Source: Kineosporia succinea (GTDB lineage Bacteria; Actinomycetota; Actinomycetes; Actinomycetales; Kineosporiaceae). From it: a DNA stretch of 64,000 nucleotides. How positions within the stretch are numbered: the stretch's first letter is position 1; each line of letters opens with the position of its first letter. Location of the stretch: assembly GCF_030811555.1 (NCBI RefSeq), contig NZ_JAUSQZ010000001.1:3903241-3967240 (forward strand). Direction: 5' to 3'. The translations under genes and the position numbers were made by a program. This document shows positions 1,240 through 3,927 of this stretch, piece after piece. Under the pieces are notes generated by a model that saw only the letters and a list, made by a program, of their open reading frames with translations, had not been told where the DNA came from and did not search any database.

Positions 1240-1638
1240 ATGAAGCTCCGACTCGCCGTCATCGAATTCGTCGTCTCCGACATGGCCGCCACGCTGGCCT
1301 TCTACCGCCTGCTCGGGCTGGACCTGCCCGATCCGGCGGTGGCCGGGGGCGAGCCCCACGTGCAGGCCGATCTCGGGGGGATCCAGCTCGCGTTCGACAC
1401 CGAGGAGACCATCCGGTCGTTCCACCCGGAGTGGACCCGGCCCCCGGCCGGTGCCGGCCAGTCGGCCGTGGCGCTGCTCGCCGGGTCCCCGGGAGAGGTG
1501 GACGAGGCCTACGCGGCCGTCGTGGCGGCCGGGTACGAGGGCGAACTGGCGCCCTGGGACGCGGTGTGGGGGCAGCGGTACGCCGTGGTGCGTGACCCGG
1601 ACGGGAACCAGGTCGACCTCTTCGCGCCGCTGGGCTGA
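1240..1638 (+). CDS. VOC (glyoxalase/bleomycin-resistance fold) family protein
   Basis: A 132-residue single VOC unit: it opens with the first beta strand and helix (AVIEFVVSDMAATLAFYRLLGL) and closes with the family signature DPDGNQVDLF, the last strand carrying a usual metal-ligand position. VOC proteins bind a divalent metal and act as lyases, dioxygenases or drug-sequestering proteins; the substrate cannot be told from sequence. ATG 1240 was chosen because a TAGCGT box lies 7 nt upstream; an in-frame GTG at 1231 would add three residues and has a GGAGG 13 nt before it. The gene stands alone, between the small ORF and the RiPP locus, and there is no sign that it belongs to the latter. Confidence 0.85.
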   Translation: MKLRLAVIEFVVSDMAATLAFYRLLGLDLPDPAVAGGEPHVQADLGGIQLAFDTEETIRSFHPEWTRPPAGAGQSAVALLAGSPGEVDEAYAAVVAAGYEGELAPWDAVWGQRYAVVRDPDGNQVDLFAPLG

Positions 1639-1827
1639 GCGGCGTGCGGGGACGTGCCGCCGCGGCTGCTCGATCGGGCAGCTACTCGTTCGGCTGAAAA
1701 TGCTTGCCGCACAGGGGAAGAAATGGATCTGAGGCAACCCGGGATGCTTGCCTGGGGTAACTGAATCGGACATATGGGGCGTACAACTGGGTGATCGTTG
1801 TCAGCTGATCAGAAGGGACGGCCGCGC
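1639..1827 (+). promoter_or_regulatory. Upstream region of the RiPP precursor with repeated ATGCTTGCC sites
   Basis: This 189-bp gap is clearly less GC-rich than its surroundings. ATGCTTGCC occurs twice in the same orientation (1700-1708 and 1744-1752, 44 bp apart, about four helical turns). A GGCAA at 1733-1737 forms an inverted partner to each TTGCC. The second copy supplies a possible -35 (TTGCCT, 1748-1753) with CATATG 17 nt further on as a weak -10. AGAAGGGA at 1811-1818 is a good ribosome binding site for ATG 1828. The repeats could bind a regulator, perhaps the AraC-type protein encoded at 3002-3742, but that link is a guess. Confidence 0.45.
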
Positions 1828-1908
1828 ATGACCATCATTCGCTCGCTCCAGAAGAAGATCGCTCACCGTCGCAGTCTGAAGAGCAAGGCCTGGTACGGCT
1901 GGATCTGA
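1828..1908 (+). CDS. Atropopeptide-like RiPP precursor peptide, 26 residues, core AWYGWI
   Basis: A 26-codon ORF with a strong ribosome binding site (AGAAGGGA, 1811-1818, 9 nt before ATG). The first 20 residues form a basic leader: seven Lys/Arg, one His, no acidic residue, beginning MTIIRSLQKK. The C-terminus reads KSKAWYGWI. Established knowledge: tryptorubin A is a ribosomal hexapeptide AWYIWY whose Trp and Tyr side chains are cross-linked by a cytochrome P450 encoded next to its small precursor (atropopeptide family). The last six residues here match four of those six positions (A, W, Y, W), and a P450 gene follows 61 bp downstream in the same direction. The C-terminal Ile means that only W22, Y23 and W25 are aromatic, so the bridging pattern must differ from tryptorubin. 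Family call is inference from the core and partner; cleavage after Lys20 is assumed by analogy. No protease or exporter is nearby. Confidence 0.82.
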   Translation: MTIIRSLQKKIAHRRSLKSKAWYGWI

Positions 1909-1915
1909 TGCGTCA

Positions 1916-1950
1916 CCGGCCCGGCGGGCAGTCACCTCCCGCCGGGCCGG
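1916..1950 (+). terminator. Perfect 13-bp hairpin between precursor and P450
   Basis: CCGGCCCGGCGGG (1916-1928) pairs perfectly with 1938-1950 around a 9-nt loop, starting 7 nt after the precursor stop. There is no U-tract. Such a hairpin in a RiPP operon probably works as a partial terminator or 3' stabiliser, giving many precursor transcripts and few reading through into the P450. Confidence 0.65.
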
Positions 1951-1969
1951 CCGCCGAAAGGGGTTGCCG

Positions 1970-2998
1970 ATGACCGCTGATCGGGCCACCGTACTGGCGC
2001 CGCGCCTGGAGGGGCTGCTCCACGACCACCTGGGGCAGGACCTGTTCCGCCTCGAGAAGGACACCGTCGGCGTGGCCGGCCCGGCGATGACCGACACGCT
2101 GATGCGCAGCCGGCCCGCGGGCCCGGCCGAACGTCCCACCTTCAAGCCGATCTTCGGACGCGCGGTCACCCAGCCGGAGTCGGCGGCGGGGATGCGGGCA
2201 CTGGGACAGGACGTGCGGGCGGCGCTCTCCTCCGCCCAGTCGGCTGCTCCCGACCTCACCGGGCGGTGGCCGCGCACCGGGCACCGCTACCTGCGCGACC
2301 TGGTGCTCGGCCGGGATCCCTACCGGCTGCGCCTGCTCAGTGGCCGCGGCATGCAGCTGCTGCCCCACGTGACCTGGACGTCGTTCGCGGCCGGGGTGGC
2401 CGCCCTGCCGCAAGGACCGGCCCGGAGCGGGATCTCGCACCTGGCCGCGCTGACCACGGGACGGTCCGGGTACCGCGACCGCCGGCACGCGATGGTGCTC
2501 TACCGCCGGCTCTCGGTGCCGGTGGCCCTGCTGGTGTCCACCATGGTCACGAGCGCGCTGTGGCTCGGTGCCCCCTTCGACGACGACACCCCGGACGAGC
2601 ACATCCTGCTCGAGACCCTGCGTCTGCTGCCCCCGTCGTGGAACCTGCTGCGGCTGGCCTCGCCCGAGTACCCGGCGCTCGACGCCCGGATCCGGCCCGG
2701 CGACGACCTGCTCTTCCTGAACTTCCTCAGCCAGCGTGACCCGGCGCTGTGGGACGAGCCCGGGCGGTTCCGCCCGGACCGCTGGCAGGAGCTCGACCCC
2801 GACACCCATCCCGGCTACCTGCCCTTCGGCCATGTGCAGGAACGGTGCTGGGGGCGGCATCTGGCGATGCCCCTGGCGTCGATGCTGCTGAGGCAGTTGC
2901 GCGAGAGTGGCTACACCGTCGACCCGGGGCAGCGCCGGGCGCGGGTTCCGCTCGACGGGCTGCTGGGGGTGTCCGCGGTCTCGGTGGTGCGGCGGTGA
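1970..2998 (+). CDS. Cytochrome P450, probable cross-linking enzyme of the RiPP
   Basis: A 342-residue P450, shorter than the usual roughly 400. The K-helix ExxR is ETLR at residues 215-218. A PERF-like GRFRPDRW precedes the haem loop FGHVQERCWG, with Cys293 as the axial thiolate; the usual second Gly of the loop is Val. The I-helix (A/G)GxxT motif is absent: the aligned region reads VSTMVTSAL. That suggests unusual oxygen activation, as in P450s that couple aromatic rings rather than hydroxylate. AAAGGGG at 1957-1963 and ATG at 1970 fix the start; a TTG at 1964 lies inside that site. By position it should oxidise the Trp/Tyr side chains of the peptide encoded at 1828 into biaryl or C-N bridges. 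It ends 3 bp from the convergent AraC gene. No ferredoxin is encoded nearby. P450 identity is certain; the substrate is inference. Confidence 0.88.
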   Translation: MTADRATVLAPRLEGLLHDHLGQDLFRLEKDTVGVAGPAMTDTLMRSRPAGPAERPTFKPIFGRAVTQPESAAGMRALGQDVRAALSSAQSAAPDLTGRWPRTGHRYLRDLVLGRDPYRLRLLSGRGMQLLPHVTWTSFAAGVAALPQGPARSGISHLAALTTGRSGYRDRRHAMVLYRRLSVPVALLVSTMVTSALWLGAPFDDDTPDEHILLETLRLLPPSWNLLRLASPEYPALDARIRPGDDLLFLNFLSQRDPALWDEPGRFRPDRWQELDPDTHPGYLPFGHVQERCWGRHLAMPLASMLLRQLRESGYTVDPGQRRARVPLDGLLGVSAVSVVRR

Positions 2999-3001
2999 GC
3001 G

Positions 3002-3742
3002 TCAGCTGAGCAGGGTGCGGGGAGTGGTGCCGGTCAGGGACTTCGTCTCGCGGGAGAGGTGGGCCTGGTCGCAGTAGCCCGCGTCGGCGGCCGCCCGGGC
3101 CAGGGGAACGCCGGCACGCGCCCGGGCCAGAGCCCGCTGCAGCCGGAGCACCCGCAGCAGATGACCGGCGCCGTAACCGAAGAGCTCCTGGCTGCGGCGC
3201 TGCAGCTGCCGGGCGCTGAAGCCGGCCCGGTCGGCCATCTCGGCGACCGGCACACCGGCCCGGGCCATGCCGAACACCCGGCGCCCGAGCGGATCGGCCG
3301 GTTCGGGCGCGGAGCGCAGCCAGCTCTCCAGCGCGTGGGCGGCTCCGCCCCGGGTGCGTGTCTCGGCGGCCGCCACCCGTTCGGCGAGCTCGCGGGTGCG
3401 GCGGGTGCCCCACAGATCTTCCAGGGGGACGAGCCGGTCGACGACGTCGGACGCGGCCACTCCCAGCGCGGCGGGTCCGGTGGCGGCGCCGAACCGCAGG
3501 GCCGTGAACCGGGTGGCACCCAGGGGGACAGGAGCGCTCGGCGCGACCGGCGCGTCTTCAGGCAGGGCGCCGGGAACGTGCGTGCGCGCCACCGTGTCGG
3601 GACCGGCGACGATCAGCCGCGAGCCGTCCCACAGCAGGTCGAGGCAGCCGTCGGGCAGGATCAGCGACGGCTGCGCCGCCTCGGACACGCTGCGCCAGAG
3701 CACGACGCCGTCGCGGGCGGCGGGCCGCTCCGCGTAGGTCAT
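3002..3742 (-). CDS. AraC-family transcriptional regulator
   Basis: A 246-residue DNA-binding protein. The N-terminal half has the ILPDGCLDLLWDG motif of the sensor domain often paired with HTH_18 (DUF6597-like). The C-terminal third carries two helix-turn-helix units: PVAEMADRAGFSARQLQRR and PLARAAADAGYCDQAHLSR, ending with the AraC-typical GTTPRTLL. Ligand unknown. ATG at 3742 has no other good start nearby. The gene is convergent with the P450 (3-bp gap) and follows the mscS gene in the same direction but behind a long hairpin, so it is probably transcribed alone. It might control the RiPP operon, but only proximity suggests this. Confidence 0.88.
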   Translation of the reverse strand: MTYAERPAARDGVVLWRSVSEAAQPSLILPDGCLDLLWDGSRLIVAGPDTVARTHVPGALPEDAPVAPSAPVPLGATRFTALRFGAATGPAALGVAASDVVDRLVPLEDLWGTRRTRELAERVAAAETRTRGGAAHALESWLRSAPEPADPLGRRVFGMARAGVPVAEMADRAGFSARQLQRRSQELFGYGAGHLLRVLRLQRALARARAGVPLARAAADAGYCDQAHLSRETKSLTGTTPRTLLS

Positions 3743-3756
3743 GCGGCCAGGCTAGC

Positions 3757-3812
3757 CCGGAACGGGCCCGGCCACGGCCTGGCGATCCAGGCGGTGGCCG
3801 GGCCCGTTCCGG
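3757..3812 (-). terminator. Long hairpin after mscS
   Basis: A perfect 19-bp inverted repeat (3757-3775 with 3794-3812, arms starting CCGGAACGGGCCC) surrounds an inner 5-bp stem CCTGG/CCAGG with a CGAT loop. There is no T-tract. It lies between the mscS stop and the AraC start and can terminate in either direction. Confidence 0.7.
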
Positions 3813-3883
3813 CGCCGACCCTGAGTGATGCGGGGTCGTGGCCCGGCACCGGCGCCGACCCTGAGTGATGCGGGGTCGTGGCC
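3811..3883. repeat. Two-copy 40-bp tandem repeat with internal hairpins
   Basis: A 33-bp sequence starting GGCGCCGACCCTGAGTGATG occurs at 3811-3843 and again, base for base, at 3851-3883 (period 40). Each copy contains CGACCC...GGGTCG, which can form a small stem. It sits at the 3' side of mscS and adjoins the long hairpin; probably a recent duplication of a terminator-like element. Confidence 0.85.
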
Positions 3884-3927
3884 GGGCCCGGCACGCGCCG
3901 CCGCCCCCGGCCGTGACCGGACGCGTC

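Follow-up and report, generated by a model that had tools for sequence, protein, structure and literature searches.

The segment 1828–2998 of the 64,000-nt stretch of Kineosporia DNA analysed here (the window) very probably represents a minimal atropopeptide (tryptorubin-family) RiPP locus, as judged from its sequence. This assignment is made because the precursor matches the NCBIfam model NF038372.1 and the P450 is similar to enzymes located beside AWYIWW and scabrirubin-type cores. The locus is genuine and intact, and it is a new member of the atropopeptide family rather than a new type. Its features and surroundings are collected in Table 1.

Table 1. Features of the precursor–P450 pair and its insertion site (positions are those of the window).
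Feature	Position	Strand	Basis
Flanking glyoxalase-family gene, outside the pathway	1240–1638	+	Pfam; adjoins the AraC gene without the pair in relatives
Left copy of 19-nt imperfect direct repeat, cassette edge	1634–1652	+	17 of 19 nt identical to 3005–3023
Complete inserted cassette of 1363 nt, comprising upstream region, precursor gene, hairpin, and P450 gene	1639–3001	+	Empty sites in G005, G006, G008 and G009
Ribosome-binding-site-like AGAAGGGACGG of the precursor	1811–1821	+	Direct sequence reading
Precursor peptide gene, 26 aa, MTIIRSLQKKIAHRRSLKSKAWYGWI	1828–1908	+	NCBIfam NF038372.1 match
RSLK leader motif, variant of KSLK	1870–1881	+	RSLK variant accepted in PMC11450843
Core AWYGWI	1888–1905	+	Sequence reading and translation
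Intergenic stem-loop, precursor to P450 (perfect arms of 13 bp, loop of 9 nt)	1916–1950	+	Enriched across 82 loci
Ribosome-binding-site-like GAAAGGGG of the P450	1956–1963	+	Direct sequence reading
Cytochrome P450, 342 aa, presumed atropopeptide cross-linking enzyme	1970–2998	+	Pfam p450 (7.7e-12), ExxR, Cys293, fold
Flanking AraC-type regulator gene, outside the pathway	3002–3742	−	Pfam HTH_18; empty-site comparison
Right copy of 19-nt imperfect direct repeat	3005–3023	+	Repeat search

The precursor ORF extends over 26 codons from an ATG at 1828 to a TGA at 1906–1908 and terminates in AWYGWI. A sequence-only reading of this DNA had described such a frame, preceded by a ribosome-binding site and followed by one P450, and this was confirmed from the sequence. 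The model NF038372.1 (“tryptorubin family RiPP precursor”) matched the ORF with 37.9 bits against a cut-off of 33, for which residues 1–26 were aligned with model positions 1–26; a Pfam search of the peptide gave zero matches. An alternative in-frame TTG at 1798 would generate a 36-aa precursor, and it is the 26-aa form that fits the family model from end to end. The expectation that so short a gene would be missed in annotation was borne out by the table of S. clavuligerus (known to be incomplete), which is empty at the corresponding place, but not by NCBIfam, which holds a model for the precursor. The RSLK motif occupies residues 15–18 and belongs to the pre-core motifs accepted in PMC11450843 (KSLK or RSLK, ESLK, KSRK, KPLK, and PSLK), consistent with an atropopeptide leader as defined there. 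The core carries Trp at position 2, which agrees with the atropopeptide pattern xWxxxx, and a second Trp at position 5, which agrees with the xWxxWx pattern of the bitryptide subfamily (PMC11450843). The mass of linear AWYGWI was recomputed as 794.3751 Da, matching the earlier figure of about 794.375 Da. Membership of the biarylitides was rejected, as these use pentapeptide substrates (PMC12352619) and the present precursor has 26 aa with a leader.

A chance origin of this ORF was ruled out by pattern counts in the genome and in Markov windows, by the pairing with a P450 described below, and by the NF038372.1 match. One instance of the full motif ([KREP][SP][LR]K, 1–3 residues, xWxx[WYF]x, and a stop) is present in the window, against 0 in 100 windows simulated with a first-order Markov model. 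At the DNA level, WYxWx-stop, with only TGA and TAA allowed as stops, was matched at a single position of the 8.07-Mb single-contig genome, which is the precursor site. By itself, the core pattern (W..[WY]x-stop) is expected 0.43 times per 64-kb window and would not be significant. A WYQWL-stop match found in the congener G008 (L131) was taken as a chance match, because it has only 15 codons from stop to stop and G008 contains no such P450 at E ≤ 1e-30.

The P450 ORF begins 61 nt downstream of the precursor ORF (ATG 1970, TGA 2996–2998). Its Pfam p450 match (7.7e-12) covers residues 212–307 only, and the ExxR motif (E215, R218) and the heme Cys293 are invariant across 51 aligned P450 rows. An AlphaFold model with a pLDDT of 85.5 gave TM values of 0.49–0.60 (by query length) to solved P450s among the matches listed. 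In a sequence comparison with solved structures, the top match scored only 47.8 bits, over the C-terminal part. P450s usually use an acid–threonine pair for oxygen activation. Such a pair is absent from the long helix before ExxR (LVSTMVTSALWLG) as read from the alignment, and four aligned relatives are alike there.

The enzyme is 76% and 70% identical to the P450s of two congeners, in which peptides with the cores VWYAWI and AWYAWI lie upstream. It shares 54–61% identity with 47 aligned relatives outside the genus, which come from Actinomycetota and Pseudomonadota. Among P450s beside published core types (51–58%), that of S. clavuligerus, with a precursor ending in AWYIWW, is 58% identical, and those of two Embleya strains, with precursors ending in TWFIWYS, are 51–52% identical. 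The P450 hence groups by identity with enzymes located beside SLK/xWxxWx precursors, and together with the precursor model match this upholds the two-gene atropopeptide-like locus proposed earlier.

Relatives were collected by a scan of genome contigs, for which the best 80 of 157 were kept (79 loci), so that the core counts given here are lower bounds. A total of 114 P450 loci (L001 and L007–L119, with some genomes present twice) were examined, and 84 non-redundant P450 rows were obtained by leaving out 6 partial, broken, or weak loci (L062, L071, L082, L083, L088, and L089) and 24 near-duplicates (score > 0.93). A precursor was found by script at 109 of the 114 loci, and 82 of the 84 non-redundant rows had one no more than 300 nt upstream; L046, with an RSFK variant, was added by eye. 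The remaining row, L119, contains a divergent P450 (37% identical) with no SLK precursor. This locus and G563:C1:1114904-1115893 represent more distant P450s (254 and 242 bits), and in L119 a frame ending in AWVLHVI, without the SLK motif, could be a precursor, perhaps of a neighbouring RiPP family. In Xanthomonas sp. GPE 39 (L084), two precursor frames ending in AWEGYISY and SWPHWY precede one P450, similar to a two-precursor atropopeptide clade mentioned in PMC11450843.

The last six residues of the 82 rows, with the window counted, were AWYIWY (21), AWYLWY (16), AWYFWY (14), AWYGWI (9), AWYHWY (7), SWYIWY (3), and AWYIWF (2), and ten others were seen once each, including AWYGWL and the VWYAWI and AWYAWI of the Kineosporia relatives. 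AWYGWI had been regarded as a new core. It is not new, being already encoded in other actinomycetes: at least 8 other non-redundant P450s have it as their neighbouring core, and at least one has AWYGWL. The carriers are S. diastatochromogenes NRRL B-1698, S. noursei A-2-1, Streptomyces sp. A 4/2, Streptomyces sp. CB02959, Umezawaea endophytica, and three genomes of the Streptomyces genus group (L114–L116). A literature search with the core letters gave no atropopeptide paper among the matches listed, as judged by the listing. The set of WY(G/A)WI cores offers a test of how residue 4 influences bridging.

The P450 was detected at E ≤ 1e-30 in 3 of 6 Kineosporia genomes searched, and in 3 of 394 genomes sampled across the class, its own genome included. 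At E ≤ 1e-60, it was found in 3 of 396 genomes drawn from the order, all of them Kineosporia, and a homologue in 30 of 295 drawn Streptomyces genomes. The locus thereby adds a genus from an order that gave no other matches in this draw, and the name Kineosporia is absent from the main text of the two atropopeptide papers searched by word.

Careful trees were constructed from 62 of the 84 rows, and later from 65 after the addition of three plasmid rows of scabrirubin and clavorubin type. They contain only atropopeptide-type homologues and no hydroxylases, and thus show placement within the group only; the separation from small-molecule hydroxylases comes from the identities and family models. 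The three Kineosporia P450s formed one clade (100/100 support), its branch being long (0.71 and 0.82 changes per site) and its deeper placement poorly supported in the 65-row tree. The P450s beside AWYGW[IL] formed a separate clade (100/100). A position of the window P450 inside that clade without its congeners was rejected (p-AU 0.00016), and with it the direct acquisition of the core from the S. noursei-type clade. A joint clade of the three Kineosporia P450s and the AWYGW[IL] P450s was not rejected (p-AU 0.43, or 0.24 with the scabrirubin- and clavorubin-type rows), so that shared descent and convergence of the AWYGWI core are both possible.

Tryptorubin B and varsorubin B1 contain a Trp–Trp C–C, a Trp–Tyr C–N, and a Trp–backbone C–N bridge, and these three common bridges involve Trp-1, Tyr-1, Trp-2, and the backbone; in laurentirubin, Tyr-2 is bridged only by the second P450 of the lau locus (PMC11450843). 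The loss of Tyr6 in AWYGWI therefore removes no tryptorubin bridge. Varsorubin B1 (WYQWL), which has no second Tyr, shows the full bridge set with Trp, Tyr, and Trp only (PMC11450843), which speaks against the new cross-linked shape once predicted from this loss, and it is by analogy the closest described product. The varsorubin core (sva; SWYQWL) resembles the present one in the xWYxW pattern and in its aliphatic last residue, which leaves only Trp, Tyr, and Trp available for bridging, but has Ser at position 1 and Gln at position 4; this comparison was made by core. The tryptorubin A/B loci (trp, lau; AWYIWY) share the two-gene logic, an SLK-type leader motif, the NCBIfam precursor model, and the AWYxW core, whereas the window core has Gly at position 4 and Ile at position 6. 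The P450s compared for this type were two enzymes beside AWYLWY and AWYIWY cores, which were 58% and 55% identical to that of the window.

The AWYGW[IL] loci (S. noursei, S. diastatochromogenes, Streptomyces sp. A 4/2, CB02959, Umezawaea, and Saccharothrix) have a core that is identical or one residue off, but differ in their separately clustered P450s and in leaders that end in [KR]SLKAY or similar. Amyxirubins are clavorubins (PMC11450843), and the AWYIWW locus of S. clavuligerus is presumably the clavorubin locus, as judged from the species and the core. These two-gene loci (A. xylanica and S. clavuligerus) carry homologous P450s (54% and 58% identical) with a KSLK leader, but differ at core positions 4 and 6. 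TWFIWYS is the scabrirubin core, from Embleya scabrispora (PMC11450843). The scabrirubin type (sca) likewise has a P450 homologous to that of the window, as seen in the two Embleya relatives, and a KSLK leader, but it possesses a WFIW core and a monocyclic product (PMC11450843). The parts of PMC11450843 and PMC12352619 consulted describe no natural product that has Gly as core residue 4; ScaB supplied with a Xanthomonas precursor gave a monocyclic WEGYIS product having Gly at that position (PMC12352619).

In characterised systems, the P450 is recruited by a leader that contains KSLK or one of its variants and bridges the core, and outside peptidases release the product (PMC11450843, PMC12352619). 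By comparison with these relatives, the 26-aa precursor would be translated and bound through its RSLK-anchored leader by the neighbouring P450, which would oxidatively cross-link the aromatic side chains of AWYGWI. At least a Trp2–Trp5 bridge is expected, and probably also Trp2–Tyr3 and Trp5–backbone bridges as in tryptorubin and varsorubin B1. Peptidases encoded elsewhere would then remove the leader, probably Ala1, and possibly Ile6.

A sizeable minority chance is given to an enzyme that makes only the Trp2–Trp5 bridge, similar to scabrirubin, and yields a monocyclic WYGW or WYGWI instead of a tryptorubin-like polycycle. ScaB, a promiscuous relative, forms a single ring even with WYIWY and WYQWL cores and accepts many residues between the Trps, and its products can be trimmed at both ends (PMC12352619), and the native sva pair also yields varsorubin B2a with a single bridge (PMC11450843). 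The Kineosporia P450s moreover lie on a long branch of unsettled position, so that their bridging pattern could differ. Against this, WYxW precursors with their own P450s gave the three-bridge tryptorubin B and varsorubin B1 (PMC11450843). That the P450 is an ordinary small-molecule hydroxylase beside an incidental short ORF is extremely improbable: Pfam assigns a generic P450 only and short W..[WY]x frames arise by chance at the frequency given above, but the curated precursor model matches, the pairing is conserved at 82 of 84 non-redundant homologous P450s, and the next-best P450 of the same genome is only 35% identical over 99 residues. The absence of the locus from 3 of the 6 Kineosporia genomes indicates that it is dispensable, and would suit a silent or decaying relic. 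Such a relic is unlikely in view of the intact frames, the ribosome-binding-site-like sequences, the heme and ExxR motifs, and the leader and core conserved in three species.

The stem-loop between the two genes proved to be a recurrent structure rather than a recurrent sequence, present in the window, in L007 and L008, and in about half of the related loci. The 70 nt following the precursor stop were compared with shuffled sequences at the 82 loci with a script-found precursor (81 for the downstream control); this stretch extends into the P450 gene at loci with a short gap, and p-values of the test treat related loci as independent. The mean z was −2.29, with z < −2 in 42 of 82 loci, against control means of −0.18 (upstream; 6/82 below −2), −0.05 (P450-coding; 7/82), and −0.40 (downstream; 11/81). 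A longest stem of at least 10 bp was found in 44 of 82 loci, compared with 1/82, 1/82, and 10/81 in the respective controls. The hairpin is not universal, since z exceeded −2 in 40 of 82 loci, such as L013 (0.39) and L050 (−0.47). No U-run follows the hairpin of the window, which makes it unlike a classical terminator; it is likely to act as an attenuator or to stabilise a short precursor transcript at its 3′ end, and it probably tunes the precursor-to-P450 ratio. Insertion of a ribosome binding site before svaB increased the yield 100-fold (PMC11450843), indicating that P450 expression can be limiting, and the recurrent hairpin is hence a testable control point. The words “hairpin”, “stem-loop”, and “terminator” are absent from the main text of two atropopeptide papers in a word search, and the titles listed by a literature search for tryptorubin and hairpin concern other matters. 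We offer as a tentative and rather doubtful idea that atropopeptide pairs are compact transferable cassettes with their own post-transcriptional control, in which an intergenic stem-loop of variable sequence, its structure kept in most of the family, restrains P450 expression, and that the Kineosporia branch is a WY(G/A)WI lineage, either early or fast-evolving, in which the small residue 4 allows a different bridge set.

The pair is a compact insertion that separates two unrelated genes at this site. In the window, the stops of these genes are 1363 nt apart, a distance taken up by the pair and its upstream region. In 4 of 5 congeners, the glyoxalase and AraC genes adjoin without the pair between them, their 3′ ends meeting or overlapping in G006 and G008, with about 20 nt between them in G009 and no more than about 65 nt in G005. 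G007 lacks the AraC gene at the site, and a mechanosensitive-channel gene follows the glyoxalase gene after about 130 nt. The empty site of the four other congeners is direct evidence that this minimal RiPP pair inserts with no accessory genes alongside. In G006 and G007 the pair lies elsewhere in the genome, and only the pair itself (window 1853–2995) was alike when 18-kb stretches were compared (blastn E ≤ 1e-10, tblastn E ≤ 1e-15). The 8 kb around the G006 and G007 sites gave many scattered, mostly multi-copy matches to the window genome, none of them continuing from the pair. The AraC regulator, the glyoxalase, and a globin were rejected as pathway genes, being conserved neighbours without the pair in relatives. 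The 17/19 direct repeat at the cassette edges, whose score was equalled by 0.0012–0.0016 of control pairs, is suggestive of a target-site duplication. At the other two copies of the pair, the search gave no direct repeat of at least 14 nt in L123, and none of the repeats found in L124 lies at both edges, so that no transposition mechanism is claimed. Beyond the cassette, the stretch between the AraC and mechanosensitive-channel genes contains, at 3757–3890, an inverted repeat of 26 nt (96% complementary) and a tandem duplication of 40 nt (90%).
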